From Lysobacter sp. (GTDB taxonomy: Bacteria > Pseudomonadota > Gammaproteobacteria > Xanthomonadales > Xanthomonadaceae): 64,000 nucleotides of DNA. How positions within the stretch are numbered: position 1 is the stretch's first letter; each line of letters starts with the position of its first letter. Of the stretch, positions 28,015 through 52,425 are shown one piece after another. The DNA lies in the NCBI GenBank assembly GCA_013141175.1, contig JABFRN010000001.1:2309444-2373443 (forward strand). Reading direction: 5' to 3'. The translations under genes and the position numbers were made by a program. The notes under the pieces were generated by a model. The model was not told the DNA's origin. It saw nothing but the letters and a program-made list of their open reading frames with translations, and did no database searches.

Positions 28015-28578
28015 ATGATCGAGTCGACCTACCGCACCGAAATCCAGGGCCGCCGCATAGCGGTCTACGACGGATTGATGCCCGAGCCGGAGCTGTTGAA
28101 GCTGTGGTCGGTGTTGAACCGCGCCGGTTTCACCCGCACCGAGATCGCGCGGCCCGACACCGCCGAGCATCGTCACTGGGCGACCGAGATCGCGATGGAT
28201 CGACTGCCGACGATGCCGTTCTTCGCGCCGACGATGGCCGCGCTGCTCGATTACGCCCCGAACCAGCGCTATCGTGCGTATCGCAGCTACGTCAATGTCG
28301 CGCACTATGGCGACATGTTGTTCACCCACACCGATTGTCATCCCGGCGCCGGCGAGTTGACCGCGCTGTGGTACATCTGCGACCGCTGGGACCACGAATG
28401 GGGCGGCGAGACGATGTTCTACGACGACGCGCGCGACGTCCGTGCGGCAGTGACTCCGCGCCCCGGGCGGCTCGCGGTGTTCGACGGCGAATTGCTGCAT
28501 GCCGGACGTCCGCCGAACCGGGTGTGCTACCTGCCGCGATTCACGTTGGCGATCAAGCTCGAACGTGCGGATGACTGA
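28015..28578 (+). CDS. 2-oxoglutarate/Fe(II)-dependent oxygenase (prolyl 4-hydroxylase type)
   Basis: Cytoplasmic protein of 187 residues with a double-stranded beta-helix. The iron triad is His105 and Asp107 in FTHTDCHPGA and His162 in ELLHAGRPPNR, with an Arg shortly after (Arg165 or Arg169) that would bind 2-oxoglutarate. WGGETMFYDD and RPGRLAVFDGELLHA are typical of the 2OG-FeII_Oxy_3 group that hydroxylates proteins or small peptides. The ATG at 28015 has a GGCAGGA site. The substrate is unknown. It lies 30 bp behind tkt, and an accessory region begins right after it. Confidence 0.88.
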   Translation: MIESTYRTEIQGRRIAVYDGLMPEPELLKLWSVLNRAGFTRTEIARPDTAEHRHWATEIAMDRLPTMPFFAPTMAALLDYAPNQRYRAYRSYVNVAHYGDMLFTHTDCHPGAGELTALWYICDRWDHEWGGETMFYDDARDVRAAVTPRPGRLAVFDGELLHAGRPPNRVCYLPRFTLAIKLERADD

Positions 28579-28617: not shown

Positions 28618-30844
28618 GTGAGCGGCAGCCGGCGCGGTGCATGCGCATTCGAGTGGGCCATGGTCTTGGCGGTCCTGCTCGGTCCTGCGGTGTCCTGCGC
28701 CGCCGCTGCGGTATCGACGCCGTGCGCACGGATCGAGGCGATGCCCCGTGCGATCCCCGATCCGGCCATGTGCCTGCGTCGCATCGATATCGCGCCGATC
28801 GCGCTGCCCGCCGTTTCCGATGACGCTGCCACGAACGCGACGGCCGCGGCGCTGTTCGAGCGCGCGGAAGAACGCGTCGCGGCCGGGCGCTTCGACGAGG
28901 CCGAACAGACGCTCGATTGCGCCGAGGCGGTGCTGCGTACCGGCGGTGATGCGACCGCGCATTACGAACTCGTTCGTCGTCGCGGCATTCTGGATTACCG
29001 GCGCGAACGGATTCCCGAAGCGCTGGAGCGTTTCGAATGCGCGCTGGAACTCTCGACCGCGCGCGAGGATCGTTCCGCGATCGCGCGCGACCTCAAGAAC
29101 GTCGGCAGCGCGCTGCGTCGGCTCGGCGATTTCCGCGGTGCGCTGCGACGCCTCGCGGAAAGCCTGGATCTGCAGCGTGCGGAAGGCAGCGATGCGCTGG
29201 GGCCGGTGCTCAACAACATCGGCGATGTCTATCGCGAGCTGGAGGAGCCCGACACCGCCCAGCGCTACTACCGCGAAGCGCTGCAGGACTTCCAGCGTCG
29301 CGGGAATCCTGTCGAAGCGGCGCACGTGCTCGAAACCCTCAGCGTGCTCGCGCTCGACCGGGGCGACTCGCGCGAGGCGGCGCGGCTGCTCGAAAACGCA
29401 CTGGCCGAGGATCGCCAGAACGGGAATCGCCCGTATCGATTGCGCATCTACGCGGGACTGACCCGGCTTGCGATCGCGGAAGGCGATCTGGCGAAGGCGA
29501 AGCGTTGGCGTGCCGCGGGCCTGGCGATGGCCGACGAATACGACCTGACCTTGCCCGCGGAGCTGGAACTGGAGGCGGCGCGCCTTGATCGCCTCGACGG
29601 GCGTTTCGGGGCCGCGCAGTCCAGGCTCCGTCGCGCCATCGCGCGCTTGCCGGAAAAGGATATCGAACGCCCCGAACTGCTGCGGGAGCTGGCGGCGAGC
29701 CTGGAAAGCGAGGGCGATACCGGCGCCGCGATCGCGGTGTTGCGGCAGACGCATACCGCCGTAATTGCGACTGGCCGAATCCAAGTACGACCGCCAGTTG
29801 GCTTGGGCGCGATCGCGGTTCGAAGCGGCGGAACGCGAACACAAGATCGCCGTGCTGGAACGCGATGGTCGCCTGCGCAGCGCAATGCTTCGCCAGCGCA
29901 CCTTGCTGCTGTGGTCCACGATCGCTTCCGGGTTGGCGCTGCTGCTGTTGATGGCGATGTTTTTCCTGCGCCGGCAGCAGCAGACGCGCATCGCCGAAGC
30001 GGCGCGACAGGCACGTCACGATGAGGAACTGGCCCGTTATCGCCAGCAGGCCATCGCACTGGGCGTCGATCACCGTTTGTTGAAGGCGCTGTTCGACGAC
30101 CGTGCCGATGCGGTGTGCGTGATCGATGCGGAAGGTTCGGTGCTGACGCTCAACCGCGCGGCGTGCGAACTGCTCGCCATCGCCGAGGATGCCATGGTCG
30201 GCCGGGATTTCGCCGACTGCCTGCAGGACGATCGCCGCGACGAATTCCATGCCGCGCTGGTGCGGATGGAGGATATGGCGACGCTGCAATTGGCGATGGA
30301 TCAGCAGCAGGGCGGCGCGCAGCTGTTGCTGCGGCTCTCCGAATGGGAACGTGATGGCGGATTGATCCTGTTGACGATCTCTGCGCCATCGACATCCACT
30401 GAGTCCGCATCCACTGAAACCGCATCCACTGAAACCGCATCCGCTGCGATACCGTCCATCGATGCGGTTTTCATGCCTGCCGGCGAAGCGGATGCGCCGC
30501 CGGAACAGGATGATTCCTCGCAGCAGCGGTTCCGTCGCGCGCTCGTCGAACTGATGCTGGCGACCGTCGATGCCTGGGAGCGCGGCACCGGCCAAGGGCG
30601 TCTGGAGTTGGCGGAAAAAAGCCGGATATGGCGCGTGACCATCGATGACGGACGTTTGCGCGCCCGCTCGATGGAGCGTTACCTCACGCTGTCGAAACTG
30701 CCGCAGAACCCGCGCTGGCGCGATGTCCTGCGCTCAGCGTATTTCGTCCTCGGCCAATGCGAGATGGACGCCGCCGCCCGGTCCGCGTTGCAGGGCGGCG
30801 TCGACGCCGTACTGGCCTACACTCGGCGCAGCGCGCTGGCGTGA
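28618..30844 (+). pseudogene. TPR / TM / PAS sensor-like protein A, interrupted by one-base frameshift
   Basis: Close relative of the intact gene at 34323-36503. The N-terminal frame (28618-29763, GTG start, export signal MVLAVLLGPAVSCAAAA) encodes periplasmic tetratricopeptide repeats such as KNVGSALRRLGDFRGALRRL. The C-terminal frame (29765-30844) encodes coiled coil, a membrane helix (LLLWSTIASGLALLLLMAMF), a PAS-like segment (LFDDRADAVCVIDAEGSVLT) and the conserved end domain with WRDVLRSAYFVLGQCEM. Removing one A at 29763-29764 joins them as AVLRLAESKYDRQL, the same length as AVEKLLRAQSDQQL in copy B. It is therefore a frameshifted gene, an error in the assembly, or a case of recoding. 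No classical slippery heptamer is present. The linker has a 15-bp tandem repeat. Confidence 0.85.
30406..30435 (+). repeat. 15-bp tandem repeat in TPR/PAS gene A
   Basis: CGCATCCACTGAAAC is repeated twice perfectly (30406-30435), with degenerate units on both sides, and encodes the pentapeptide pattern STETA in the linker between the PAS-like and C-terminal domains. The intact paralogue lacks it. Confidence 0.75.
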
Positions 30845-30908
30845 GGCGCGGCGACCGTCCATGGTCGCTTTGCCAGAACAACATCTTCCGTTCACCGTTG
30901 GTCTCCGC

Positions 30909-31382
30909 TCATTTCGACGGCAGCGGGGATTCCGGCGCGGGTACGGCTTCGTTCGGAATACAGACCACGCAGACGCCCTTGAGGCCATCGCGGAAGTTGT
31001 AGAGCCGGTGGTGTTCGCTTGAGTTGAACGTGGCCGGCAAGCCCACGAACGGCACGCTTTCCGAGGCGCGCGGCAACGACCTGCGCAAGGGCGACGCCGA
31101 GCAGAACGTCTGACTCATCTCGTTGGCCCAGAACCAGTCGTCGACGATGCCGCAACTGGAGTCGGCCCTGCACGTATCGTTGCCGGGCAGCGGATGGTCG
31201 TTGCGGTAGCTCGTCAGGTCCGCCTCGGTGAAGTCGAAATTCAAGACGACCTTGGGCACCGTGTTCGGGTCGAGACACCAGTTCCTGGGCAGGGTCTCGT
31301 GCGCGAATGCGGGCGTGGCGAGCAGCAGGCCGACCCCGAACAGGGACAGGCGGAACCGGCGGATCGAAGCGTTGTGTGGCAT
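30909..31382 (-). CDS. Exported cysteine-containing protein A, partner of TPR/PAS module
   Basis: Protein of 157 residues with a signal peptide (LFGVGLLLATPAFA, cleavage before HETLPR) and about six cysteines in the mature part. Its landmarks are FDFTEADLTSYR, then CGIVDDWFWANEMSQTFC, EHHRLYNFRDG and GVCVVC. The protein at 36524-37156 has the same series: FRFTKKDLMRER, CGVVDGYHEASALIVRYC with identical 18-residue spacing, DHHQRYSFNDG and GTCYVC. The two are therefore paralogues. Both lie convergent to, and directly after, a TPR/PAS membrane protein gene; here 64 bp separate the stops. I do not recognise a known family. Paired cysteines suggest a disulfide-stabilised periplasmic or secreted protein. 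Confidence 0.82.
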   Translation of the reverse strand: MPHNASIRRFRLSLFGVGLLLATPAFAHETLPRNWCLDPNTVPKVVLNFDFTEADLTSYRNDHPLPGNDTCRADSSCGIVDDWFWANEMSQTFCSASPLRRSLPRASESVPFVGLPATFNSSEHHRLYNFRDGLKGVCVVCIPNEAVPAPESPLPSK

Positions 31383-31805
31383 GGGAGCGGCATGGAAAGG
31401 ACGATGATCGAGTGTAGAGGCTGATCACGGGCGCCAGCCAACCTTTTCGAGGGCAAAAGAGGGCATGAATCGCTCGCAACCGTTTGATTCGTCATGGCGC
31501 GTCTGCTTTGTGGCGTCCGCTGCGGCAGTGTGGTGCGCGATGCCGCATGCATACCGATCGCGAGCGGGCGGGCAGATGCCCCGCGATGTTCCCGCTTTTC
31601 CCCGGTTTTGTACTGGTGCGCAGGGATGCGACTCCCTAGCGTCACACGGGCCGGGTGTGCGGCACGGAGCCTCTGGGTGATCGATCCGTGCGGTCCATTG
31701 CGCGAGCGTCCATATGCTTCGCACCCGCGCTGCTGATCCGGGTTCCCTCGACCCTCCGGAGCGCCGGACGGATTCCATCGACTGAAATCAAGGAGTAATC
31801 GTTTC
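31383..31805. other. Intergenic region, no gene recognised
   Basis: This 423-bp stretch separates divergent genes. Short open frames are present but lack ribosome sites and family resemblance. AAGGAG at about 31789-31794 is the ribosome site of the next gene. Confidence 0.5.
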
Positions 31806-32237
31806 ATGAACATGATTCGCAAGATCTGTGTCGCCACTGCGCTTCTGATCGGCGTCTCCACCGCTGCGGATGCGCGTCCACCGGCACCTTGGGGCGGCGG
31901 CTACTACGGCAGCGCCTGGTACAGCAGCGGCCAGGGCTCGGTCATCGCCGGTGCATCGACCTGGGCCGAATGCAATTCGCAGCTTCAGGATGCCATCAGC
32001 CGTGCGTTGGGTTGGGGCTGGAGTGTGGTGAGCTATGTGCCCTGCCACTATCAGGCGCCGTTCCAATTCGCCCCGGCCCCGGAGGACGGTGTCGAGATCG
32101 CGGCGGGCTCTCCAGGCGAGTCGGCGGGTGTGGTCCGGGTGATCACCGATGAGATCGTGCGGGTGCGCACGCAATACCAAGCCGACGAATACGAAGCCTC
32201 GATGCGCACCATCTATCAAGCCGCCATCGGCAAGTAA
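31806..32237 (+). CDS. Small exported protein of unknown function
   Basis: Protein of 143 residues from the ATG at 31806, with a clear AAGGAG site. A signal peptide (CVATALLIGVSTAADA) leaves a mature chain starting with Gly/Tyr/Ser-rich PPAPWGGGYYGSAWYSSGQG, then ASTWAECNSQLQDAISRALG and SYVPCHYQ; the two cysteines may form a bridge. The C-terminal part is helical (QYQADEYEASMRTIYQAAIG). I do not recognise the family. It lies alone between the A module and the 32.6-34.1 kb gene pair. Confidence 0.78.
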   Translation: MNMIRKICVATALLIGVSTAADARPPAPWGGGYYGSAWYSSGQGSVIAGASTWAECNSQLQDAISRALGWGWSVVSYVPCHYQAPFQFAPAPEDGVEIAAGSPGESAGVVRVITDEIVRVRTQYQADEYEASMRTIYQAAIGK

Positions 32238-32639
32238 GTCGCGGCCAGACAATGCGTCGCCTGCGCGTCTACCTGCACGTGCAGCTCCGCGAAGCGATGC
32301 CTGTTGCAAGGGCCCAAGGACGGGCCGTCTTCAGATTGCAACGCTGCGGCCAATCGTTGGCCATCGGTGCCGAGCTGAACTCCGATCGCGATATGCGACG
32401 ATTCGCGCGACAGCCGCGGGCGCGGGATGGCATCGGCTGCACACCCGTATATTGTTTTGTAAATGATTATCGTCACGAGTCATCGCGATGTTTCAACAAA
32501 CCGGAACGCGACCGCCGCCGCCAGAAAAGTCCTGTAAACGCAACAAGTCCCATTATTTATGAGACGATAATCTCGCTATATGGGGAATCATGGACTTGAT
32601 TGTTTTCTTCGATGCTTGGCGTGTCGAGCGAGGTAATGC
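32238..32639. other. Intergenic region with AT-rich promoter-like part
   Basis: This 402-bp stretch has no convincing gene. The last 170 bp (about 32450-32590) are much more AT-rich than the surroundings and include the short inverted repeat GAGACGATAATCTC near 32561-32574. This is probably the promoter region of the gene at 32640; no exact start site can be assigned. Confidence 0.4.
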
Positions 32640-33278
32640 GTGGTCGATCTGGGAGAGTTGTGCGGCGTGCTGAAGTCGGCGATGGCCGATGGTGGTGGGC
32701 ACAAGGTGTTTTTCTACGCCGCAGGAAAACATGGAGCCGGGCTCAGGCACGGTTTCATCGCGATCGTCGATTCGCGTACGTGTCAGCTGAATTTCGAGCA
32801 GTTCGACAACGATCGTGCGCTGACCGAGATCCCGCAGCTGAATTTCATCAAGGTCCAGGCCTTGCCGATGATCGGACAGAATCCGGCCACGGGCAGCAAT
32901 CCGCTGCTGGATGTCCAGCACGTCTTGAATCTGTTCGACCCCGGGAGGCAATCCGCATCGACCGGCGTGCCGCAGGCACCCGCGGAGACGCAGCATCGAA
33001 CCGCACCGGAAGCCGCCTTGCCGCGATCGGTGGCTGCGCATGCGACCCCGGGCACCGCGAAGTTGCCGTATACCCGTCTGAGGGAAGACGCGACCGCATT
33101 GCTGCAGACCTACTACGGCAATTCCGCGCCGCAGAAAATCGCGGACGTCGTGGCCAGGTTTTCGCCGGTGACGCAGCCCGCCGAATTCCTGGATGCCTGC
33201 CGGCAATTGACGGCGGTGCTGGTCGGTACGGCCAAGGCCAATGAAGTGTTCAGGGCATTGTCCGAAAAACTGGATTGA
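32640..33278 (+). CDS. Unrecognised cytoplasmic protein
   Basis: Protein of 212 residues from a GTG at 32640 preceded by GCGAGGTAAT. It has no signal peptide or membrane helix. Residues 1-75 (GELCGVLKSAMADGGGHKVF, GFIAIVDSRTCQLNFEQFDN) look like an alpha/beta domain of roadblock or profilin type. A Pro/Ala/Thr-rich linker (about 95-140) is followed by a helical C-terminal domain (LREDATALLQTYYGNSAPQK, FLDACRQLTAVLVGTAKANE). That two-domain plan recalls proteins of small-GTPase or PatA-type signalling systems with a DUF8082-like end, but the likeness is weak. It is 110 bp upstream of an 8-helix membrane protein on the same strand, so they may work together. Confidence 0.75.
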   Translation: MVDLGELCGVLKSAMADGGGHKVFFYAAGKHGAGLRHGFIAIVDSRTCQLNFEQFDNDRALTEIPQLNFIKVQALPMIGQNPATGSNPLLDVQHVLNLFDPGRQSASTGVPQAPAETQHRTAPEAALPRSVAAHATPGTAKLPYTRLREDATALLQTYYGNSAPQKIADVVARFSPVTQPAEFLDACRQLTAVLVGTAKANEVFRALSEKLD

Positions 33279-33388
33279 GGAATCACGGGATCGAGCCGCG
33301 GTTCCGGGGAGCGGACTGTGGCGCGCATGTGTTCGGGATCGCCGTATTTGCCGGCGTCCCGGATCTATTCATTCAAGGGGAAAATCAA

Positions 33389-34147
33389 ATGACGGGAATA
33401 CAACGCTTCATCGCTGCGATCTGGGTGCTTTCGACGTTGCTGATGGTGGTGCTTGCGATGGCGGGCGTGGACGAAGTGGTCCGGCTTTATTACTCGAACG
33501 CATTGCAATTGTTGTCCAGCATCGGTTGCGGCCTGATCTGCCTGACGGTCATGGACGCGTTTCCGGCGGGCAGCCCGCTGCGCAATGCATGGCGTCTGAT
33601 CGGCGCCGGCGTGCTCGCGTGGGGGATCGGCGCGATGATCTTCGCGGGCTACCCGCTGATGCACGATGGCGAAGACACGCCGTATCCCTATTACGCGGAT
33701 ATCGGATATCTGTTGACCAGCCCGCTGATCGCGATGGGCCTGCTGGTGTTCAAGCGCGGCGCGGGCCTGGTCGCACCGCTCTGGGGCAAGATACTGGCGG
33801 TGGTGGTACTGCTGATCAGCATGTATTGGGGCTACTACGCCAACCATGAAGGTCTGACGGGGCAGGGCGTGGCCATGTCGCTCAGCTCGATCTGCTACAT
33901 GCTGTTCGACCCGATCCTGATGTCGATCACCGTGCTGACCGCGACCTCCTTCACCGGCGGGATCGTGGCCGAAACCTGGTGGAAGGCCGTGCTGGGCGTC
34001 GCGCTGTATTTCTTCGCGAATCAGGCCTTCACCTATCTCAATCTCATCGACGACTACACGACCGGGTCGTGGATCGACATGGGTTGGATGCTCGGCTTCG
34101 GCATGATCGCATGGGCTGCGATGACCGCTCGCAGGATGATGCTGTGA
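33389..34147 (+). CDS. Eight-helix membrane protein resembling a sensory input domain
   Basis: Inner-membrane protein of 252 residues from the ATG at 33389 (MTGIQRFIAAIWVLSTLLMV), with about eight hydrophobic helices and almost no soluble part. The motif YPYYADIGYLLTSPLIAMGL matches the pattern (Y-A-D-x-x-Y-L-L-x-x-P-L) seen in the membrane domain at the front of some GGDEF/EAL and kinase proteins; here no output domain follows. It may be a stand-alone sensor that signals through the soluble protein encoded 110 bp upstream. The function is unknown. Confidence 0.8.
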   Translation: MTGIQRFIAAIWVLSTLLMVVLAMAGVDEVVRLYYSNALQLLSSIGCGLICLTVMDAFPAGSPLRNAWRLIGAGVLAWGIGAMIFAGYPLMHDGEDTPYPYYADIGYLLTSPLIAMGLLVFKRGAGLVAPLWGKILAVVVLLISMYWGYYANHEGLTGQGVAMSLSSICYMLFDPILMSITVLTATSFTGGIVAETWWKAVLGVALYFFANQAFTYLNLIDDYTTGSWIDMGWMLGFGMIAWAAMTARRMML

Positions 34148-34322
34148 TCGCTGCAGTCTGAAATCGCCTTCGATGTGGCGCAGGATGTGCTGTGTCTTGC
34201 CCTGCCTGGTTGGGCACGCTTGCCGATGATGCCCTTTTTACTGAGCCAGGCGCCGGTGCATGTGGTGTTAGCATTGGTCCGAAGGCGAGGGAGAAGGTGA
34301 GTCGCTTGCAAGGAGGCGCTGC

Positions 34323-36503
34323 ATGAGGGCGAATTTCAAGTTGGGATTCCAGATATTCCGCGCTTTCGTAGGCACGGTGATGCTATGCGCCGCAGCTACA
34401 GTGAGCGCCGGGTCGATTCCCGTGTGTGCGGTGATCGACCCGAGCACCTTGCCCACAGCTGGAAGCTGTCAACGCCGTTTCGCATCGGCCGACCCGGACG
34501 TGCTTTACGCATTTGCGGACGCGAAGATCAAAGCTGGCGACTTCCTTGAAGCGCAATCTGCGCTGGACTGTGTCGCAAGGCAGTTCATTGGCAAGAACGA
34601 CCCTCTGAGCCAGTACGAATGGGTGCGCCGGCGTGGCGTGCTGGCCTACCAGGACCAACGCATCGACATCGCGCTCGGACACTTCGAGTGCGCTTTGCGG
34701 ATGGCGGAGAAGCGCGGCGATCGCGCGGCGACCGCCAAACAGCACAAAAACGTCGGCAGCGCGCTGCGCCGTATCGGCGACTACCAAGGCGCGCAGCGAA
34801 ACCTTGAACGTGGATTGCAGATGATGCGCGAGGATGGCGACCCTGCGATCGGCGGGATGTTGTCGAACATTGCGGACATCTACCGCGAAACCGAAGACCC
34901 TGCGAAAGCCGAGCGCTATTACCTTGAAGCCGAAGCCGCGTTTCGTCTCAAGGGCGATACGGTCGAAGCAGCGCACGTGCTCAACAGCCTGGGCCTGTTG
35001 GCGTTGGAACGCAAAGATTACACGACCGCCTCGGGGATGCTCGAAACCGCACTGCGCGAAGTTCAAAGCAAAAAAGATTTCCGATATCAGCTCAGCTTCT
35101 ACGGTGTTTTGGCAAAAATTGCGATCGCGCGGGGCGATGTGCAGGGTGCGGCGCTGCATGCGGCTAACGGTCTGGCCGTTGCCGATGCAAATAAACTGCC
35201 GATTCCAGTGGTGCTGAATTTGCAGGCTGCGCGCGTTGATCGTTTGCAAGGTCGCCAAGATGCTGCGATACGCCGGCTCGAAACCGCCCTGAAAAAGCCT
35301 CTGAGCAATGCCGACCGCGCCGAGTTATACGAAGAATTGGCTTTCATGCACGGTGAGAGCGGACACAATGCAGATGCGATCGATAATTATCGCAACGCAC
35401 ATGAGGCCGTGGAGAAATTACTGCGCGCGCAGAGCGATCAGCAGCTCGGGTGGCTGCGTGCACGATTCGAATCCGACGAGGACGAACGTACCATCGCCGC
35501 GCTGCGTCAGCGCACGTTGCTGCTGTGGCTCGCGGTGGCATCGACTCTCGCGGTGCTATTGGCGTTGTCGCTGATCTTCGTGCGCCACCAGCAGCGTGCG
35601 CGGATCGAGGATGCGATGCGGCGTGCGCGCTACGAAGAAATGCTGGCGCGCTACCGGCGCGAAACCGATGCTTTGGGCGAGGACCGCGACCGCTTGCAGA
35701 CTCTCTTCGACAGCCGTAGCGACGCGCTGTGTTTGCTCGATGCGGATGGCATGCTGCTGACCGTGAATCGCGCGGCCTGCGCCTTGCTCGGTGGCGAACG
35801 CGAACGCTTCGTCGGCCGTGCGCTGACCACATTTTTCAGCGATTCCGATGCCGGTGTTCTGATGGTCGCGCTGGAGCGTATGGAGGATGCGGTAGCGCAC
35901 ACCATGAATGTATCTTCACCCACGGATGGCGCTGAACTACGTGTTGAATTGGTCCCGTGGGAGCATGGCGATGGTTTGATCGTCATGCAGTTGCGCCGAT
36001 GCAGCGACATCGCGACGGTAACGGCGGAGGCGCCGATCTCTACGCCGCTGCCTGTCGCTGCTGAGCGCAGCGTCAGCGACGAGCATGATGCGGATGACGG
36101 CCTCGACACCAGCGATGCCGCCAATGTGCCGGTGCCCGAGTTCGCGGCGGCGATCGCACTGGCTAGCGACGACGATGCGCGGGCGGATTTCCGTCGCGCC
36201 TTGGTCGAACTGATGCTGGCTGCGATCGAGGCCTGGGAGCGCAGCACCGGCCAGAACCGGATCGAGCTGGCCGACCGCAGTCGCATCTGGTGCATCAATA
36301 TCGACGATGGTCGGCTGCGCACGCGTGCGATGGAGCGCTACATGAGCTTGACGAAGCTGCCGCGCAACCCACGTTGGCGCGATGTACTGCGTTCGGCGTA
36401 CTACGTGCTTGGTCAATGCCAACTCGACCCGACGGTGCGCGATGAACTGCAGCGCCGGGTGGATACCGTATTGGCGTATGCGAGGCGTACTGCTTTGGCA
36501 TGA
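34323..36503 (+). CDS. TPR / TM / PAS sensor-like membrane protein B (intact copy)
   Basis: Protein of 726 residues, intact relative of the gene at 28618. The ATG at 34323 has a strong AAGGAGG site. Order: export signal (residues 1-29), a cysteine pair PVCAVIDPSTLPTAGSCQRR, six or seven tetratricopeptide repeats (about 50-380, for example KNVGSALRRIGDYQGAQRNL) predicted in the periplasm, a short coil, one membrane helix (LLLWLAVASTLAVLLALSLI, about 396-419), a cytoplasmic coiled coil and PAS-like domain (about 452-560), an acidic linker, and a conserved end domain (about 620-726) with ELMLAAIEAWERSTGQNR and NPRWRDVLRSAYYVLGQC. This looks like a one-component membrane receptor with an output domain I cannot name. 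A cysteine-rich exported protein gene lies 20 bp beyond, convergent. Confidence 0.88.
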   Translation: MRANFKLGFQIFRAFVGTVMLCAAATVSAGSIPVCAVIDPSTLPTAGSCQRRFASADPDVLYAFADAKIKAGDFLEAQSALDCVARQFIGKNDPLSQYEWVRRRGVLAYQDQRIDIALGHFECALRMAEKRGDRAATAKQHKNVGSALRRIGDYQGAQRNLERGLQMMREDGDPAIGGMLSNIADIYRETEDPAKAERYYLEAEAAFRLKGDTVEAAHVLNSLGLLALERKDYTTASGMLETALREVQSKKDFRYQLSFYGVLAKIAIARGDVQGAALHAANGLAVADANKLPIPVVLNLQAARVDRLQGRQDAAIRRLETALKKPLSNADRAELYEELAFMHGESGHNADAIDNYRNAHEAVEKLLRAQSDQQLGWLRARFESDEDERTIAALRQRTLLLWLAVASTLAVLLALSLIFVRHQQRARIEDAMRRARYEEMLARYRRETDALGEDRDRLQTLFDSRSDALCLLDADGMLLTVNRAACALLGGERERFVGRALTTFFSDSDAGVLMVALERMEDAVAHTMNVSSPTDGAELRVELVPWEHGDGLIVMQLRRCSDIATVTAEAPISTPLPVAAERSVSDEHDADDGLDTSDAANVPVPEFAAAIALASDDDARADFRRALVELMLAAIEAWERSTGQNRIELADRSRIWCINIDDGRLRTRAMERYMSLTKLPRNPRWRDVLRSAYYVLGQCQLDPTVRDELQRRVDTVLAYARRTALA

Positions 36504-36523
36504 GGCCGCGGTTCAGGCTCGCG

Positions 36524-37156
36524 TCAATCCTCGGGCTTGACCTGCACTCTCTTCACCGGATCAGCACTGGGTTCTTTCATTTTCACGCAGACGTAACAGG
36601 TCCCGGTGACTGGGCCGTCGTTAAAACTGTAGCGTTGGTGGTGGTCTCTTGTGTTGTAGCTCGCGGGGCGAACAACCTTGAACCCGATTTCGCGACGATG
36701 CTTGGCGTCGCTTGTGGGCTGCGCACTGATTTTGTTTTGCGTGCCGGTGACTATCGTATTGGCACCCTGCGCTTGTCGTGTGCAATAGCGAACGATCAGC
36801 GCACTCGCTTCGTGATAGCCATCGACGACGCCGCACATGTTCGGATTGAAGTCCGGCAATACCGTCGACTGTCCGGCCGACGGTGCATCAGGTCTAAGCA
36901 CCTGGTTTTGTACTCTTCGTTCTGTAATCGCGAGCTCTGAATTGCCTCGGCTGTCTTGCCTGTCGAGTCCGGCAAGCGGGCATGGCCTGCTTGAGTGGGT
37001 CTCCCGCTCGCGCATCAAATCCTTTTTTGTGAAGCGGAAGGTCCCGGTCACGACCGAGTAAGTACCCTCCACCTTGCATTGGTAGTTGTGGGCATTGGCC
37101 GAAAAGGCCATCGAGAAAAGGCATGCGAAGAGTGCGGTCTGCCGTGTTGCCATCAT
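36524..37156 (-). CDS. Exported cysteine-containing protein B, partner of TPR/PAS module
   Basis: Protein of 210 residues, paralogue of the one at 30909-31382. The start ATGATG at 37151-37156 follows a CAGGGG site. The signal peptide is QTALFACLFSMAFSANA; the mature part starts HNYQCKVEGTYSVVTGTF. Shared marks with copy A are FRFTKKDLMRER, CGVVDGYHEASALIVRYC (Cys-Cys distance identical), DHHQRYSFNDG and GTCYVC. Copy B has about 40 additional residues in the middle. The stop lies 20 bp from the stop of the TPR/PAS gene B, tail to tail, as in the A module. Possible role: periplasmic ligand or accessory of the TPR receptor (inference from neighbourhood and cysteines). Confidence 0.82.
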   Translation of the reverse strand: MMATRQTALFACLFSMAFSANAHNYQCKVEGTYSVVTGTFRFTKKDLMRERETHSSRPCPLAGLDRQDSRGNSELAITERRVQNQVLRPDAPSAGQSTVLPDFNPNMCGVVDGYHEASALIVRYCTRQAQGANTIVTGTQNKISAQPTSDAKHRREIGFKVVRPASYNTRDHHQRYSFNDGPVTGTCYVCVKMKEPSADPVKRVQVKPED

Positions 37157-37927
37157 GAAACCCCTGAGTGATTGTGCGAGTTCACTTTAGGCGGTATCCG
37201 CAGGTTGCCGCTACGGTTTTATGTGGCACAAAGTGGGAATAAAAAAAGGCAAATCTTTGATTTATTTCAGCTTATTGAATTTTCCGTGTTCCAGTCCGGC
37301 AACGGGTTGCGTCACCTCGTAATGCATGAACTCTCGCGCGCACCTCAATGGTCGGAAACGACGAGCTCTCATATTTTTGTAGCGCACATTGGCGCTCATC
37401 GACGGCAGCCTGAATGCGAGTTCCGTTCGTAGAAGGGGCTTCGGGTCCGATAAGCCCATCTCTCGAACGTTATCGAGGCTAGAGCCCCTCCTGCGCGAGC
37501 GCGGCGGTCGAATTCGTACATATGTGGGTCTGATAGGTTGTGTGAATCGACTGATTCTTATCGTTAGAACATGCGAAGACCCAGCCGGAAATGTGTCGCG
37601 GTTGAGCGCCGCATGCGATTCGGTCGCATCGCCGGCCTATGAAGACCTGTTTCGAAGCGGCGATTCAGCGCGGCGCAAATGGGTATTCGCGCTAACTCCA
37701 TTGTCTAGAGCCATCGAGAACGTTCTTATTTGCATCGGCAGCGCGGCCGGCAGGTCTGGAAGGCAGGCTGCGCGCGGGTTCTACCCATTTGTTCCCGGTC
37801 CGTTCCCCGCTCACTCCTTTAACGGCGAAACCGCGCGGCATACGGTGATTTCACCGGATCGTGCCGCCGACATTGCGCGATCCGGCCACGCATCCACACC
37901 GCCATCGGCATCGCCAGGAGACACTTC
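37157..37927. other. Long intergenic region, no gene recognised
   Basis: This 771-bp stretch is more AT-rich than its surroundings in 37190-37400. Open frames exist (for example 37389-37931 on the plus strand), but they have no ribosome site, odd composition and no recognisable domain. It probably holds the promoter of the minus-strand gene ending at 36524 and possibly decayed sequence. Confidence 0.45.
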
Positions 37928-38680
37928 ATGAATCGCATGCTCGTCCGTTTCCACACCACAGCCACCGCCAAAACCACGCGCCGTATCGCCCTGCTCGCGG
38001 CGCTGCTCGCGGCACTACCCGCTGCATTCGTGTCGCAAGCACAAGTGCAAGAGGCCCCGGCGAGGCAGCGCCCGTCGCCGATCGACATGCCGCTGCCGCT
38101 GCCGCAAAAAATGCTGCCATTGGGTTGCTGTCAGTGCCTCGGCGAGCAGAAAACACTGGATCTGAGCACTGGATCCAGCAATGGATGGAGCGTCGTCAGC
38201 AGTCTGACCCCGGCCATCGCCGCTGTGCCCGCGACTATCCTGACGTCGCCGCATCCTGCGTGGAATCTTCCTACCGGCGGTGCGCAATGGGTGTCGGCCG
38301 GCACCTCGGGAGCGACTGGCCTGCCTGCAGCGACCTATACGTATCGACTGCGGTTCAAAGTCCAGAAATGCACGATACCGCAGACGGTCAAATTGACGGG
38401 CATCGCCGGTGCCGACGACATTTTCAAGGTCTTCCTGGACAGCAACCCAACGCCCGTTTCCGCGTGCAGCGGCGGATGGTGCTTCAACACGCAAAACCCG
38501 ACACCATCGTTCACGGTCAATAACCTCGCGCCCGGCTCGCATGTATTGACGGTAGTCGTCGTCAATACCGGGGGACCCACCGGCATGTTCCTGAAGGCGG
38601 GGCTTGAAGGGCAGTGCCCGAAAGAACCGATCAAGTCCGATAGAGCTGCGGAGTATTCCGATAAAGCGACGGACAACTGA
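37928..38680 (+). CDS. Exported beta-sandwich-like protein with CC motif
   Basis: Protein of 250 residues from the ATG at 37928, with an AGGAGA site eight bases upstream. A signal peptide (ALLAALLAALPAAFVSQAQ) is followed by a Pro/Gln-rich segment and LPLGCCQCLGEQKTLDLSTG. The main domain (GAQWVSAGTSGATGLPAATY, TYRLRFKVQKC, LTGIAGADDIFKVFLDSNP, NLAPGSHVLTVVVVNTGGPT) has the look of galactose-binding-like or CBM-type beta-sandwiches found in secreted proteins. About seven cysteines are present. It is followed 118 bp downstream by another exported protein with a CC motif. The function is unknown; adhesion or glycan binding is a guess. Confidence 0.8.
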   Translation: MNRMLVRFHTTATAKTTRRIALLAALLAALPAAFVSQAQVQEAPARQRPSPIDMPLPLPQKMLPLGCCQCLGEQKTLDLSTGSSNGWSVVSSLTPAIAAVPATILTSPHPAWNLPTGGAQWVSAGTSGATGLPAATYTYRLRFKVQKCTIPQTVKLTGIAGADDIFKVFLDSNPTPVSACSGGWCFNTQNPTPSFTVNNLAPGSHVLTVVVVNTGGPTGMFLKAGLEGQCPKEPIKSDRAAEYSDKATDN

Positions 38681-47217: not shown

Positions 47218-50200
47218 TTACGATCTGATCCACTGATCCACAATTCTTGTGGATTCGGCAACACTAACATATACGCCGCAATCTGTTTTCAAGCGCTCAA
47301 TGCTTTCTAATAATCGCGCGGTTCTAACGGGTGAAGATCTACCCAGTGAATTAATCGCATCCTGGTAAAAAGAAATAGCGAGCTTGTACTCGCTTTTGGA
47401 CTCTAATACTTCTCCAATCCATTGCCTGGCATATGCTCTATTTCCGCTTAAGTCTGGGGCCGTGTCACCTTGTAGAGCGCGAATCGATTTTTTATAACAA
47501 ACTAGCGCGCCATCAAAATCTTTGACTAAGTGTAAACATCTGCCGACATTGCCGAGTGTCGGTCCATCATCAAGTGCAACATTGCTGTTTGAGTCTATTA
47601 AATCTGCCAAGGCATAACTTTTCAAAAAATATTTTAAAGCAGCACGCGGGTCTCCATTGTCTCGTTGGGCCAAAGCCAAGCTGTGAGCGCAATCAAAGGA
47701 AGTATCAACATTGGTCTCGTTCTTCAGCGAATCTCCTTGGGATGCCCATTCGATAGCCTGTGAGAAATTCAAACGAACCCAATATGAGTGCGCTTTGATA
47801 TCACAATACTTGATAAATCGAGCGGTTTTCTTTGGTATCGTCAATTCAAACCTAGATAACAGCTCGTCAGCTTTGTCATGCTCACCTAGTTGATCAAATG
47901 CGTTGACTGTGGCGCCAATAAGGTGATCGAATCTCTTGAATTTTGTGGCAGCAGTCTCCCAATCAATTGATTCAAATAGAATGCGCGAAATACGTATGAA
48001 CTCTTCGATATGCCCTCCGCCAAGCATTACATCTTCGACTTTATGCAGGGTGTCGAAGGCTTGTTCGTGGAGTCCAGCTGTTATTTCAAGTTCCGCTTTT
48101 TGTGACCAGCGTTCTAGCATGGGAAGCGGCAAAAAAGCGCTTAGCATTGATTCAATCGAGCCAATAATGAATTCGTACTGAGTGAGAACCACTCTTATGA
48201 AACCACTGCGTTCATTCCGTTCAAAACGTGCTCTGATGAATTGCCTAACAAGAGGGTGGAGGTCATATAAGTCAGGGGCGTTCGTTTCCGGCTTAACTAC
48301 GATAAGGTTTAGTGAAATTAGTGATTTCAGAGACTTCTTGAATTTATTGTAGTTCAATTCTGAAGAGACAAATTTCTCAATCGTATTCTCTGTCTCTGGG
48401 CGCATTGTTTCAGCCATAAATCTAAGAACCATTTGTTCTCTTTGAGCAAGAGTATCCCAGATCGAAGATAACACGTCAGGGCCATCGCCTCGTCCACGGC
48501 GTAGATTATCTAAGAGTTTTCTTAGAGTAGTTCCGGGAACTTTTGCCACTTGAGTAGCCATCAGGTCTAGCCAAAAGGCATGCCCTTTTGTAAGGGTGTG
48601 CGCCTCTTTAATTTCAATTTCAGGCACAAATTCACCATTTGCTCTTTTCTTAAAAAGCTCGATTGCCTCATCTTCAGAAATGCCTTGCACGGAAAACGTA
48701 ATAATTTCTGAAGAATCATAATGTATATCAGGTCTGCACGTGATTATTAATCGGTTTGAAGTCGCGTTGTTTGATAGCTTTCCAACAAGAGTATCGAGAA
48801 TTCCTGTGAATTTTTTAAATTCCAAGTCAACGTACTTATCTACGTTGTCAAATACGAATATGGACTTTGAGTTTTTAGTTATATCTATCAATAATTCTGA
48901 TATTTCAATATCAGATAGCTCGCAAATTTCTTCTGATTTAATGGAGCCCCCGCTGTAGCGGGAAATTATTTCTGTAATTTGGGTTCTTATTCTATCCCCC
49001 TCTTCTTTGCAGTCACGCCAATCCCATCTTTCAAAATTTATCTTTTCCTCCATGGATATCTGCAAATATCTGGCAGCCAAGACTGATTTTCCTTGGCCGC
49101 CAATTCCGCAAAAAGCAACCACCTTGGCGTTGGAAGTCTCAAGTGATCTAAGCTCGGCTTCGCGACCTACCCACACGTCAATGTTTGGTGGGCGATCGCA
49201 TTCCAGAGTCGGTAGTTTGAAGGGTTTCGTTTTATGTATTTCTCTCTCTGAATCGATCATATTTGACCGCGATACGGCTGAATTCTCCTGCCCACCAATA
49301 TTTTTATTTTTATGCCATGCTGCTAAAAGATCAGGGATAAAAGTATGGCAATTTATTCCCGCGTAAAAAGTTACTCGATTGCGATTAATCCCGGAGGCGA
49401 GTGATTCTAATAGATAATCAGAAAATTTGGGCTGATCTTCATAGGCGGCCCAGAGTATTTCAGGGAATAGATTGTTGTTGCTTACAAGGCCGTTAAGAGC
49501 GCCTGTGAATATATCTGGCCAGCCTCCATACGCTAGAACGACCACAATCTTATCTTCAAGAAGTTTCAATAGTGAATTCTTTAGTGTTGGCCTGCCGTGT
49601 AATAACTGCTCTCCAGTATGAAGAGTGTCGTTGCCATGCCAATAGCCATGAATGTGAATGACTTGACAGCCATTTGCTGTGCTATTTTCTATCGCCCCAT
49701 CGGCCGATAACGATGTTCTCCATGCTGAGCCGCCATGCTTGTTGATGGCAACCTCTATCAGTGGGTCGAAATTGGATGTAACTACTGCCTTGCCGAAGGT
49801 TTCTGGAAAATCAGCGATTAACTGACCAAGCGCATCAACGCCTGGGCTTAGATGCCAGCAGCGCGCATCTTTGTCTAAGTTTGCAAGCTGGTCGTTTGTT
49901 AGAGAGCAAATAGTATGTTTAGAGATATTATTTTTATTAATTAATAGAGCGCCTGAAACAGCTTGCTTAACTATTTTGTTGGCTGCATCTTGCCCTCTAC
50001 CTCCTGTGAGAAATTTGAATGCAGACTGATATCTGTTCTTTGATGTTGACAACTCTCTATCTAAAGCTTCAAGTCGAGCTGGTCTTGCAAGGAACTGATC
50101 GCGGATAAGTTCTACGACTGACTGAACATTTGCAATTCCATAGCGGCTATCCCCATGTGGTGCTGTCATGGGCGAACCTGTTACAAAAATAACTTTTTTC

Positions 50201-50277
50201 CCCGATCCTATTACTCCATCAGAAAGCCTGTCTAGCAACGCCTCTTTATCGTAAAGCTGCAGTCTATTGTCGATCAT
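47218..50277 (-). CDS. SIR2 / NB-ARC / TPR protein, candidate antiphage NLR-like effector
   Basis: Protein of 1019 residues from the ATG at 50275-50277 (MIDNRLQLYDKEALLDRLSD); a TTG at 50451 would add 58 residues. Residues 1-330 are a SIR2-like NAD-binding domain: VIFVTGSPMTAPHG, VVTSNFDPLIEVAI (Asn169), IHIHGYWHGND (His210), VVVLAYGGWPDIF. Residues about 370-640 are an NB-ARC STAND ATPase: WVGREAEL, Walker A CGIGGQGKSVLAA (about 390-401), Walker B KSIFVFDNVDKY, sensor NRLIITCRPDI, and a winged-helix end HPLVRQFIRARF. The rest is helical TPR. In known relatives a SIR2 domain on a STAND core depletes NAD when the repeats sense phage. The gene is strikingly AT-rich between GC-rich neighbours and stands alone, which suggests recent acquisition. 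Confidence 0.9.
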   Translation of the reverse strand: MIDNRLQLYDKEALLDRLSDGVIGSGKKVIFVTGSPMTAPHGDSRYGIANVQSVVELIRDQFLARPARLEALDRELSTSKNRYQSAFKFLTGGRGQDAANKIVKQAVSGALLINKNNISKHTICSLTNDQLANLDKDARCWHLSPGVDALGQLIADFPETFGKAVVTSNFDPLIEVAINKHGGSAWRTSLSADGAIENSTANGCQVIHIHGYWHGNDTLHTGEQLLHGRPTLKNSLLKLLEDKIVVVLAYGGWPDIFTGALNGLVSNNNLFPEILWAAYEDQPKFSDYLLESLASGINRNRVTFYAGINCHTFIPDLLAAWHKNKNIGGQENSAVSRSNMIDSEREIHKTKPFKLPTLECDRPPNIDVWVGREAELRSLETSNAKVVAFCGIGGQGKSVLAARYLQISMEEKINFERWDWRDCKEEGDRIRTQITEIISRYSGGSIKSEEICELSDIEISELLIDITKNSKSIFVFDNVDKYVDLEFKKFTGILDTLVGKLSNNATSNRLIITCRPDIHYDSSEIITFSVQGISEDEAIELFKKRANGEFVPEIEIKEAHTLTKGHAFWLDLMATQVAKVPGTTLRKLLDNLRRGRGDGPDVLSSIWDTLAQREQMVLRFMAETMRPETENTIEKFVSSELNYNKFKKSLKSLISLNLIVVKPETNAPDLYDLHPLVRQFIRARFERNERSGFIRVVLTQYEFIIGSIESMLSAFLPLPMLERWSQKAELEITAGLHEQAFDTLHKVEDVMLGGGHIEEFIRISRILFESIDWETAATKFKRFDHLIGATVNAFDQLGEHDKADELLSRFELTIPKKTARFIKYCDIKAHSYWVRLNFSQAIEWASQGDSLKNETNVDTSFDCAHSLALAQRDNGDPRAALKYFLKSYALADLIDSNSNVALDDGPTLGNVGRCLHLVKDFDGALVCYKKSIRALQGDTAPDLSGNRAYARQWIGEVLESKSEYKLAISFYQDAINSLGRSSPVRTARLLESIERLKTDCGVYVSVAESTRIVDQWIRS

Positions 50278-50451
50278 TGAGATGGTTTCCACTTTCTTCT
50301 TAGATTGGTAGGCCAAGGATTTTATTGATAAATGTCTTTTTGATTTAGTCGACAAAGTCGTGCGCAAAGTTGTGGCTAATTGCGAGGTGCTGTGGCCTTG
50401 ATTTTTGTCAGATAAGTTTTCGAGAATCCATTTGTCGGAATTTTCTAGCAA

Positions 50452-50859: not shown

Positions 50860-52302
50860 TCAGAGCGCAGCCGCGTGCGCCAATCCCGTCACCACGCCCA
50901 GCGACGCGTTGCCCATGACCAGCTCCGCATCCGGGAACATCTCCCTCACGAGCTGCGGCACATAGGGCGAGCGCGACATGCCGCCGGTGAGATAGACCGT
51001 CTCCGGCGGCTGCGTCAGTTCGGCCATGGCGCTCTCCATGAGCGTGCGCACATGGCGGAGGAACGGTGACGCGGCATCGTCGAGGCGTGCGGAGTCGAGG
51101 GTCCCGATCAAGCCTGTCTCGATGAAATCGAGATCCAGCGTTACGCACTCGGTTTGGCTCAATTGGATCTTGGCGCGCTCAACGGCACGATTCAGGCGAA
51201 CGGTTTGGCCCGGCGCCCTCAGGCTTTCCAGACGCTGGCCATAGGGCGCTTCGACATGCGCGAACGAGGCCTCGCGGAACCGGGCCTGACGCTGCAGGTC
51301 CTGCACGGCGGACGCTTCGTAGAAGCGGTGCACCGGCGTGTCGGTGACGTTTTTCCCGAACAGCGGCATGACCGAGCGCATGCTCAGCTCGATGTCCACA
51401 TCGGTTCCGCCCACCGGCTCGCCCCATGCGCCATGCACGACAGGTGCGTTTTCCGCACCGCCGACATCGGCAAGGGCGATGTCCGTCGTTCCACCGCCGA
51501 TGTCGAGGATCAGCGTCCTGCGGGGGCGTTCGTTGCGCTGGTGATAGCCGTACGCAGCCGCTGCCGGTTCTTCGAGGAACGCCACATCGTCGAAGCCCGC
51601 GGCATACGCCGCGTCGGTCAGTATTTCGAGCGCCTGTACGCCGCCTGCTTCTTTCATCGAGCTTCGGAATCGCACCGGGCGCCCCAGGAGGGCCGCCCTG
51701 ACGTCGCGACCGAGCTGCGCGCTCGCCGTAAGCCGGATATGCCGCAGCAACTGTGTGGCGATACCCAACAGTGTGTCGCGCGCATGCGCCTCCAGCCGGT
51801 AGCCCAGCATGGACTTCGGAGAGACCACCAACTGGCCCGTGCTCTCCTCGATGAAGGCATCGACCGCCTCTTCGCCATAAAGCGCGTGCTGCAGGTCCAC
51901 GCGCTCGAGCATGGCCTTGCGCATCTCCAGGGCCGCCCAGCGCCGACGCACGAGCGCGCGCGCGTCGCGCTCCAGTTCCGGCTCGCTTCGAACGCGCGGC
52001 GAGGGAATCATGCCCAGCTCGCGTGACCGCTGGGGTTCGGGGCGCTGCATCGCCTGCTCGCGGCGTGCACGAAGGTCCGCATGCAGCATGGCCTGATCGC
52101 GCCGGAATTCTCCCATCAGCCTCCGGGTCTCGTCGTGCATGTCGTCGGTGAGTACGAAGTCGGACAGGTCCGGTAGCCGTTGCGGGAAATAAACCGTGGT
52201 ACGGAACTGCAGGTCGTCGCCAAACCGGATCAACTGCAACTCGCCATCGATCACAGCACCGGCGGCCGAATAGCTCGTGCCGAAGTCGATTCCGATGCGC
52301 AT
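50860..52302 (-). CDS. yegD: Hsp70 family chaperone-like protein, YegD type
   Basis: Protein of 480 residues from the ATG at 52300-52302 (MRIGIDFGTSYSAAGAVIDG). The actin/Hsp70 ATPase marks are present: phosphate 1 GIDFGTSYSAAG, VSPKSMLGYRLEA, the connect region FLEEPAAAAYGYH, phosphate 2 LILDIGGGTTDIAL and the adenosine motif YLTGGMSRSPYVPQL. There is no full substrate-binding domain, which fits YegD, a short Hsp70 relative of unknown client range. A charged helical insert (about 55-115: MHDETRRLMGEFRRDQAMLH) is longer than in E. coli YegD. It is flanked by 65-bp direct repeats and lacks a DnaJ or GrpE neighbour here. Confidence 0.9.
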   Translation of the reverse strand: MRIGIDFGTSYSAAGAVIDGELQLIRFGDDLQFRTTVYFPQRLPDLSDFVLTDDMHDETRRLMGEFRRDQAMLHADLRARREQAMQRPEPQRSRELGMIPSPRVRSEPELERDARALVRRRWAALEMRKAMLERVDLQHALYGEEAVDAFIEESTGQLVVSPKSMLGYRLEAHARDTLLGIATQLLRHIRLTASAQLGRDVRAALLGRPVRFRSSMKEAGGVQALEILTDAAYAAGFDDVAFLEEPAAAAYGYHQRNERPRRTLILDIGGGTTDIALADVGGAENAPVVHGAWGEPVGGTDVDIELSMRSVMPLFGKNVTDTPVHRFYEASAVQDLQRQARFREASFAHVEAPYGQRLESLRAPGQTVRLNRAVERAKIQLSQTECVTLDLDFIETGLIGTLDSARLDDAASPFLRHVRTLMESAMAELTQPPETVYLTGGMSRSPYVPQLVREMFPDAELVMGNASLGVVTGLAHAAAL

Positions 52303-52425
52303 GCACTTCCCGAAAAGCAATGATGAGGCAGACCATTCTGCCGCAAACGGTGCCGCTTGGTGTCCGTTGGATCAATCGAGCCTGCTGTGTCTGCTTCGGG
52401 TTCTGCGCGTTCCACGCCGCATACC

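Follow-up and report, generated by a model that had tools for sequence, protein, structure and literature searches.

A ChiS-type transmembrane regulator paired with a predicted N-terminal-histidine exported protein in Lysobacter: a candidate self-contained sensing switch

Why a membrane receptor and an exported cysteine protein should stand side by side, twice over, is the question raised by a stretch of the Lysobacter sp. genome (assembly GCA_013141175.1, contig JABFRN010000001.1, positions 2,309,444 to 2,373,443). These 64,000 nucleotides, from a source genome that is a single contig of 4,155,120 bases, are the window analysed here. A sequence-only reading of the window had described two membrane proteins (28618-30844 and 34323-36503; receptors A and B in Table 1), each followed tail to tail by an exported protein (partners A and B), and had proposed that they are a co-duplicated functional pair, perhaps a receptor with an exterior ligand or redox partner, and that the end domain of the receptors may be a new output domain. 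Its description of the proteins was mostly accurate. The receptor motifs and their order (export signal, tetratricopeptide repeats [TPRs], transmembrane helix, PAS and end domain) are correct, the gaps between the convergent genes are as given (30844/30909 and 36503/36524), and both exported proteins carry the signature FxFTxxDL, CG(I/V)VD (after which the next Cys comes exactly 17 residues later), HHxxYxFxDG, and CxVC (CVVC in one, CYVC in the other). It missed the predicted mature N-terminal His of the partners, the identity of the end domain and a conserved operator upstream of the partner genes.

The end domain gives the first part of the answer. The conserved string noticed in it is seen as WRDVLRSAYFVLGQC in receptor A and WRDVLRSAYYVLGQC in receptor B. 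An AlphaFold2 model built from 52 aligned domains (pLDDT 90.7, pTM 0.81) has helix-sheet-helix elements at H45-52, E58-60, E63-65, H67-73, and H84-97, and its sole match in the PDB with E <0.001 was 7KPO (Foldseek E 2.5e-9, TM-score 0.80/0.93), which is the DNA-binding domain (DBD) of Vibrio cholerae ChiS. The relationship is also found by sequence, with an E value of 2.8e-34 for the profile (hmmsearch) and 1e-18 for the single sequence (phmmer). The idea of a new output domain was therefore rejected, since the domain matches the ChiS DBD by both fold and sequence. In ChiS, five basic residues (R1068, R1074, K1078, R1090, and R1092) are critical, and their loss abolishes DNA binding (PMC8092284). 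At these positions, numbered by hand on the phmmer alignment, receptor B has D, R, R, R, and R, so that four of the five are basic.

With a ChiS-family DBD at the C-terminal end after the PAS domain, as expected for the family, the receptors can be classed as one-component transcription factors that are anchored in the membrane and have a periplasmic TPR domain as sensor. The only matches above the cut-off in Pfam and NCBIfam were to TPR and PAS, with none to a kinase or receiver; the TPRs and PAS thus have Pfam support, and the single transmembrane helix was read off the sequence. The homology and the model suggest that the receptor, which spans the membrane, probably binds DNA directly. Like ChiS, the receptors have a homologous DBD after PAS, a membrane anchor, and, in receptor B, basic residues at four of the five critical positions (PMC8092284, in part); unlike ChiS, they have no histidine kinase or receiver, and their sensor is a periplasmic TPR domain. 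The HAMP, HisKA, HATPase, and receiver domains that mark ChiS orthologues are absent from the receptors and present in relatives from Vibrio, Pannonibacter, and an Osedax symbiont. Kinase, receiver, and PAS matches precede the domain in four of the six distant relatives scanned (these three and SAR324), the PAS match in Pannonibacter being below the cut-off, and the other two have no Pfam match. We also noticed a ChiS-type DBD protein standing alone, of 185 residues and without a Pfam match (L103:5863-6420), and similar lone end-domain frames of 186 residues in two other genomes (G070 and G144).

The receptor kind was already known in outline, because the legend of Fig. 5A in the 2021 ChiS paper lists TPR among the domains that accompany the ChiS DBD; as far as the legend tells, the architecture is like that of the receptors here (PMC8092284). 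No partner gene, operator, or function for such proteins is given in the sections of that paper on bending, domain arrangements, and the bioinformatic search. TfoS, ToxR, and other transmembrane regulators resemble the receptors in being membrane-anchored and binding DNA directly (PMC11856585, in part). Among the matches listed by literature searches, in which subscription papers were mostly missing, no paper dealt with the partner, with its pairing to the receptor, or with the operator. Presumably, the sensor and DNA-binding families of TfoS and ToxR differ from those of the receptors here. The receptor thus appears to be a variant within a known kind, and the partner and operator appear to be undescribed in the searchable literature.

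Receptor B is a single open reading frame (ORF), as had been proposed, whereas receptor A is split over two reading frames, with the register lost near 29.75-29.78 kb (about 29.76 kb). In the genome search it likewise appeared as two separate pieces, the second of which was recovered alone by both the receptor profile and the DBD profile. Counterparts of receptor A in four loci of the same genus (L048, L054, L055, and L056), judged orthologous by eye from gene order, are single frames at the matching position, so intact copies exist and there is no reason to assume a programmed frameshift. The break may be a real pseudogene or a sequencing error.

The second part of the answer concerns the pairing. 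In 297 genomes of the family, with three receptor candidates scored per genome, receptor matches were found in 45 and partner-profile matches in 43, and all 43 partner-bearing genomes fall within the 45. The remaining two are one genome with a weak TPR match only (G126) and one with a lone end-domain frame (G144, mentioned above). Among 369 genomes of the class, the partner was found in two, the window's own and one from another family of the order (G660), both of which have the DBD, and the DBD was found in nine. Hence no partner without a receptor or its DBD was found in these 297 and 369 genomes. A convergent partner accompanies 47 of the 52 full-length receptors in the named loci and the window, some of which lie on overlapping or same-contig loci, with gaps from -33 to 539 bp (median 30). 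Two of the five exceptions are an SAR324 protein of 2096 residues that was counted by rule (L113) and a receptor whose locus ends 298 bp further on (L098). In a set of 20 loci, the count was 31 of 32. Convergent orientation is kept in Pleionea (L097) and in G660, where all three receptor-partner pairs are convergent. Pairs are also carried by Lysobacter enzymogenes (L083 and L106). We therefore regard the receptor and partner as a functional pair, conserved as a unit and copied as a unit, a conclusion supported by these counts; independent occurrence of the two genes, which the sequence-only reading had named beforehand as the outcome that would count against it, was not what the survey found.

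An old neighbourhood inherited by descent without any function could also produce conserved synteny, and some flanking genes, such as a transketolase-like gene seen by eye, are indeed common to several loci. This explanation is hardly credible, as the pair recurs in differing neighbourhoods, in Pleionea and in multi-copy arrays, and as three separate pairs in the genome of another family. Two of the arrays hold four receptors and five partners (L055) and four of each (L057) within one locus.

The third part of the answer lies upstream of the partner genes. Expectation maximization (EM) on 35 non-redundant 450-bp regions 5' of partner genes gave a log-likelihood of 234 at width 18 against 76-84 in three shuffles, and of 143 against 51-53 at width 12, the shuffles being run with half the starting points. 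The candidate operator has the short-form consensus AATCAA-N4-TTG...TTCCCG-GTTTGTNCCCG; in the width-40 model it reads AATCAA-N4-TTG, then gATTnnTTCCCG-GTTTgTnCCCG, and contains an 11-bp tandem repeat. A score >15 in gene orientation was reached by 29 of the 35 training regions and by 74 of all 87 regions, and in 22 of 28 sites the end of the site is 68-75 bp before the called start. A held-out model, for which 16 regions from other genera than that of the window served as training set, placed operator B first (14.1) and operator A second (9.5) in the 64 kb; third place (7.0) went to 37769-37808, which faces the divergent gene at 37928. In a scan of 442 kb (the window and 20 loci), much of which had supplied the training of the position weight matrix (PWM), 33 of 36 hits >8 were 5' of partner genes and one was 5' of a decayed partner gene. 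The last of these (L062:15533-15572, minus strand) looks as if copies of the module come and go. In the genome from another family (G660), which was untrained, the best hit in each of three loci was 5' of the partner gene, with scores of 23.8, 9.8, and 7.6 for the 40-bp model; the locus scoring 7.6 reaches 17.9 with the 30-bp model. By eye, the operator is followed in many rows by a -35-like TTGGC and a -10-like CTANACT. The receptor probably controls the adjacent partner gene.

Another factor might instead act at this site, be it a different regulator, a sigma factor, or a transcribed leader, with the receptor regulating something else. The repeats in reverse reading resemble GGAAC, the -35 core of extracytoplasmic function sigma factors. 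Against this, a strict pattern drawn up to fit operators A and B has two matches in the 4.16-Mb genome, both before partner genes (reversed control, 0), and the operator recurs with paralogous pairs and in other genera. The operator also lies directly 5' of the -35- and -10-like boxes and so need not be transcribed. We think it improbable that the site belongs to another factor and read it as the candidate operator of the receptor. The strict pattern was also tried as a marker of co-occurrence in the 297 family genomes and was set aside as too noisy, since 41 genomes match, many of them without the system through one recurring stretch.

What, then, is the partner? A profile of 27 partner proteins, both window proteins included, retrieves the window pair at E 4.1e-54 and 1.2e-35; these values and the recurrence of the convergent pair indicate that the resemblance is not due to chance. 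The partners had no match in Pfam, NCBIfam, or a PDB sequence search. Thus, the expectation that matches to well-described families would speak against the pair holds for the end domain, which belongs with ChiS, and for none of the exported proteins. For conservation and folding, 50 rows were aligned from 64 distinct hits, leaving out two fragments, four hits whose mature start was not found by the script, and near-duplicates; for eight hits the mature start was placed manually. Cys50, Gly51, His97, and His98 are invariant in all 50 rows, and the first mature residue, at cut sites chosen by us, is His in 47 and Asp in three. Because these sites were chosen and eight starts set by hand, a residue-blind cleavage rule was run as well: it gave His in 44, Asp in seven, and other residues in 13 of the 64 hits, and His in one of 80 other exported-like proteins of the same loci. 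His is reported at 2.6% of cleaved N termini of secreted proteins, and four families with an N-terminal His are reported to bind Cu or Ni (PMC12537917, in part); the partner family is not among the four named in the headings of that paper.

N-terminal-His metalloproteins include the histidine-brace proteins (lytic polysaccharide monooxygenases and CopC), DUF4198, DUF6702, and anglerases (PMC12537917 and PMC10952591, both in part). The partner resembles them in that removal of the signal peptide would expose His1 and in having a second invariant His; it differs from them in lacking a Pfam, NCBIfam, or PDB sequence match (anglerase sequences were not part of this comparison), in its fold, and in being paired with a transcription factor. 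The AlphaFold2 model of mature partner A (50 rows; pLDDT 86.0, pTM 0.79) is mixed alpha/beta, and a fold search found no match in the PDB (best E 2.4) or among viral structures (best E 0.74). Classic members of the histidine brace have an immunoglobulin-like or beta-sandwich fold. The partner therefore shares with them the N-terminal His, as predicted from sequence, and the second conserved His (HH in 50 of 50 rows), but not the fold. Residue conservation suggests that the partner probably binds a transition metal through the N-terminal His, the HH pair, and possibly the Cys of CG(I/V)VD; by likeness to known N-terminal-His proteins, copper is our first guess.

The sequence-only reading had also proposed a redox partner, in which CxVC would be a thiol-disulfide active site that reports the periplasmic redox state to the cysteines of the receptor. 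Its CxxC-type spacing fits this role, and the periplasmic Cys residues of the receptor are conserved (four in 43 of 52 receptors, two in five, and five in four). The distribution of losses weakens the idea. Cys67 and Cys111 are missing together in three related rows, perhaps as one event, and Cys9 and Cys114 together in one row, which points to two structural disulfides (predicted 9-114 and 67-111), so that CxVC looks like two structural Cys in different disulfides. Moreover, the 43 receptors have four periplasmic Cys whatever the number in the partner. We give a redox role very little likelihood. A disulfide between partner and receptor was likewise unsupported, as the Cys number of the 52 receptors has no link to the Cys parity of the partner. 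In 32 of the 50 rows there is a further loop Cys, situated after the first helix and before Cys50; in the 18 rows without it, the thiol of the invariant Cys50 may be free and thus a possible metal ligand.

The last part of the answer is whether the partner acts on the receptor or is merely its product. Comparison of 52 pairs (1225 of 1326 distances usable) gave correlations of partner distances of 0.54 with the TPR domain, 0.44 with the DBD, and 0.42 with PAS. The partial correlation of partner and TPR given DBD was 0.355, as against 0.078 for partner and DBD given TPR and -0.03 for partner and PAS given TPR, and none of 2000 permutations reached the observed partner-TPR value. This pattern fits contact of the partner with the periplasmic TPR domain and agrees with the exterior-ligand idea of the sequence-only reading. 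The receptor could also sense something else directly through TPR or PAS, in which case the partner would be no ligand but simply a product under its control, for instance a protein that chaperones or sequesters metal in the periplasm. In the loci scanned, the operator stands almost solely 5' of partner genes, as it should before a target. Some stress systems control a periplasmic metal binder in such a way, ZraP and CpxP being examples. Such a product-only role is possible but on the unlikely side, given that partner distances track TPR beyond DBD and that the partner was never found without the receptor in the genomes searched.

We consider it somewhat probable that each module is a dedicated ChiS-type transmembrane switch for a putative metal-binding periplasmic protein that feeds back on it. 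The receptor would be a one-component membrane-anchored transcription factor with a periplasmic TPR domain, probably disulfide-braced, one transmembrane helix, a cytoplasmic PAS domain, and the C-terminal ChiS-family DBD. It would bind the tandem-repeat operator beside the -35 box of the partner gene, and perhaps also a weaker opposite-facing copy that serves a divergent exported gene, and would switch the partner gene, most likely on. The partner would be secreted, its N-terminal His exposed by removal of the signal peptide, and would probably bind a transition metal, copper being the first guess, through His1 and HH and possibly the Cys of CG(I/V)VD. By contacting the TPR domain, it would report its metal or ligand state and close a feedback loop. 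ChiS is likewise controlled by a periplasmic protein: chitin-binding protein (CBP) keeps ChiS inactive when chitin is absent, and CBP with bound chitin is presumed to switch it on (PMC10208484 and PMC11856585, both in part). The analogy with CBP and ChiS is the reason for proposing a TPR receptor tuned by the partner whose gene it controls, unlike CBP a small N-terminal-His protein. What the computations give directly is the DBD homology, the N-terminal His predicted from sequence, the pairing, the operator, and the TPR distance correlation; DNA binding at the operator, activation rather than repression, metal binding, and physical contact we infer from them. A bolder version, unlikely and offered tentatively, would make the partner a new class of N-terminal-His metalloprotein and a metal-dependent ligand: a metal receiver, exported by the cell itself, that docks on TPR and thereby adjusts how much of itself and of a divergent secreted protein is made, in a one-component replacement for a metal two-component system with its periplasmic accessory protein.

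Several observations weigh against this mechanism. Within the genus, nearest-neighbour comparison gives the same answer for partner and receptor in only 11 of 23 pairs, so that the claim of co-evolution is carried by the distance correlation. Critical R1068 of ChiS is Asp in receptor B, a residue called poorly conserved (PMC8092284, in part). Four long orthologues of the partner B type are predicted to begin, once mature, with Asp and not with His; since they keep HH, pairing, and operator, the N-terminal His is not indispensable. Full-length receptors without an adjacent partner occur as a second copy in L078 (L053 in the 20-locus set, where it is the one miss), whose partner is one gene further on, in L085, and in Paraglaciecola (L110). 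In the window, partner A and operator A persist beside a broken receptor A. The strict operator pattern also turns up where the system is absent and fails to appear in many genomes that have it, and the opposite-facing repeat exceeds the threshold in just seven of 35 regions (shuffle mean 0.2). By eye, with few neighbours scanned, no metal gene consistently adjoins the modules.

Table 1. Features of the two modules in the window.
Feature	Position	Strand	Remarks
Receptor A, piece 1	28618-30024	+	Export signal, Cys pair, periplasmic TPR region; Pfam TPR_12 6e-20
Receptor A, piece 2	29765-30844	+	Transmembrane helix, PAS (Pfam 6e-9), ChiS-family DBD
Partner A	30909-31382	-	Exported Cys protein; predicted mature N terminus His (AFA/HETLPRNWC, slash at cut); 64 bp from receptor A, tail to tail
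-10-like TACACT, candidate partner A promoter	31411-31416	-	By eye, from comparison of columns in 30 promoters
-35-like TTGGCT, candidate partner A promoter	31436-31441	-	By eye, from comparison of columns in 30 promoters
Operator A (candidate)	31450-31489	-	68 bp 5' of partner A; PWM 25.4 vs <=6.4 in 5 shuffled windows (PWM trained with the site)
Weak opposite-facing TTCCC tandem repeat toward divergent gene	31586-31615	+	30-bp PWM 8.4; suggestive only
Divergent small exported-looking protein	31806-32237	+	143 aa, without Pfam match; possible second target
Receptor B	34323-36503	+	Intact single ORF; signal peptide, 4 periplasmic Cys, TPRs, one transmembrane helix, PAS, ChiS-family DBD
ChiS-family DBD of receptor B	36126-36500	+	Modelled part; scores in the text
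Partner B	36524-37156	-	Exported Cys protein; predicted mature N terminus His (ANA/HNYQC); longer, divergent paralogue; 20 bp from receptor B, tail to tail
Operator B (candidate)	37223-37262	-	67 bp 5' of partner B; PWM 25.8
Opposite-facing tandem repeat toward gene 37928	37779-37808	+	30-bp PWM 14.7; overlaps third place of held-out model
Divergent exported-looking protein	37928-38680	+	250 aa, without Pfam match; possible second target

A role of the receptor in regulating the divergent exported genes is only suggested, as the opposite-facing repeat is weaker and found in few regions. In the window and in L048-L067, the partner gene often has a divergent neighbour whose product is small and exported-looking, these products being of several unrelated kinds; six of seven divergent proteins scanned had no Pfam match, the exception being a subtilase in L060. 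When metal genes were sought near the modules, L067 alone showed a MerR regulator and a heavy-metal ATPase, some 3 kb away, and this neighbourhood, not being general, was not used. Just 5' of receptor A is a gene for a 2OG-Fe(II) oxygenase-like protein (28015-28578, plus strand), with look-alikes, by eye, beside receptors in L054, L055, and L056. Elsewhere in the window, a large protein with SIR2-like, NB-ARC/STAND, and TPR matches (47218-50451, minus strand) is encoded beside an Hsp70-like gene (50860-52320), in a stretch of low GC content (51% vs about 65% in much of the window); it looks like an acquired defence-type gene.

Taken as a whole, receptor and partner appear to form a self-contained and little-known sensing switch. 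For many proteins with a ChiS-family DBD, signal and target are undescribed in the literature consulted, and this locus offers candidates for both: it joins in one place a candidate signal carrier (the partner), a sensor, a precise candidate operator by the promoter, and a candidate target. If the N-terminal His does bind metal, the recently recognised N-terminal-His metalloproteins would gain, in the partner, a family whose fold has no PDB match, and would be tied to the control of transcription.

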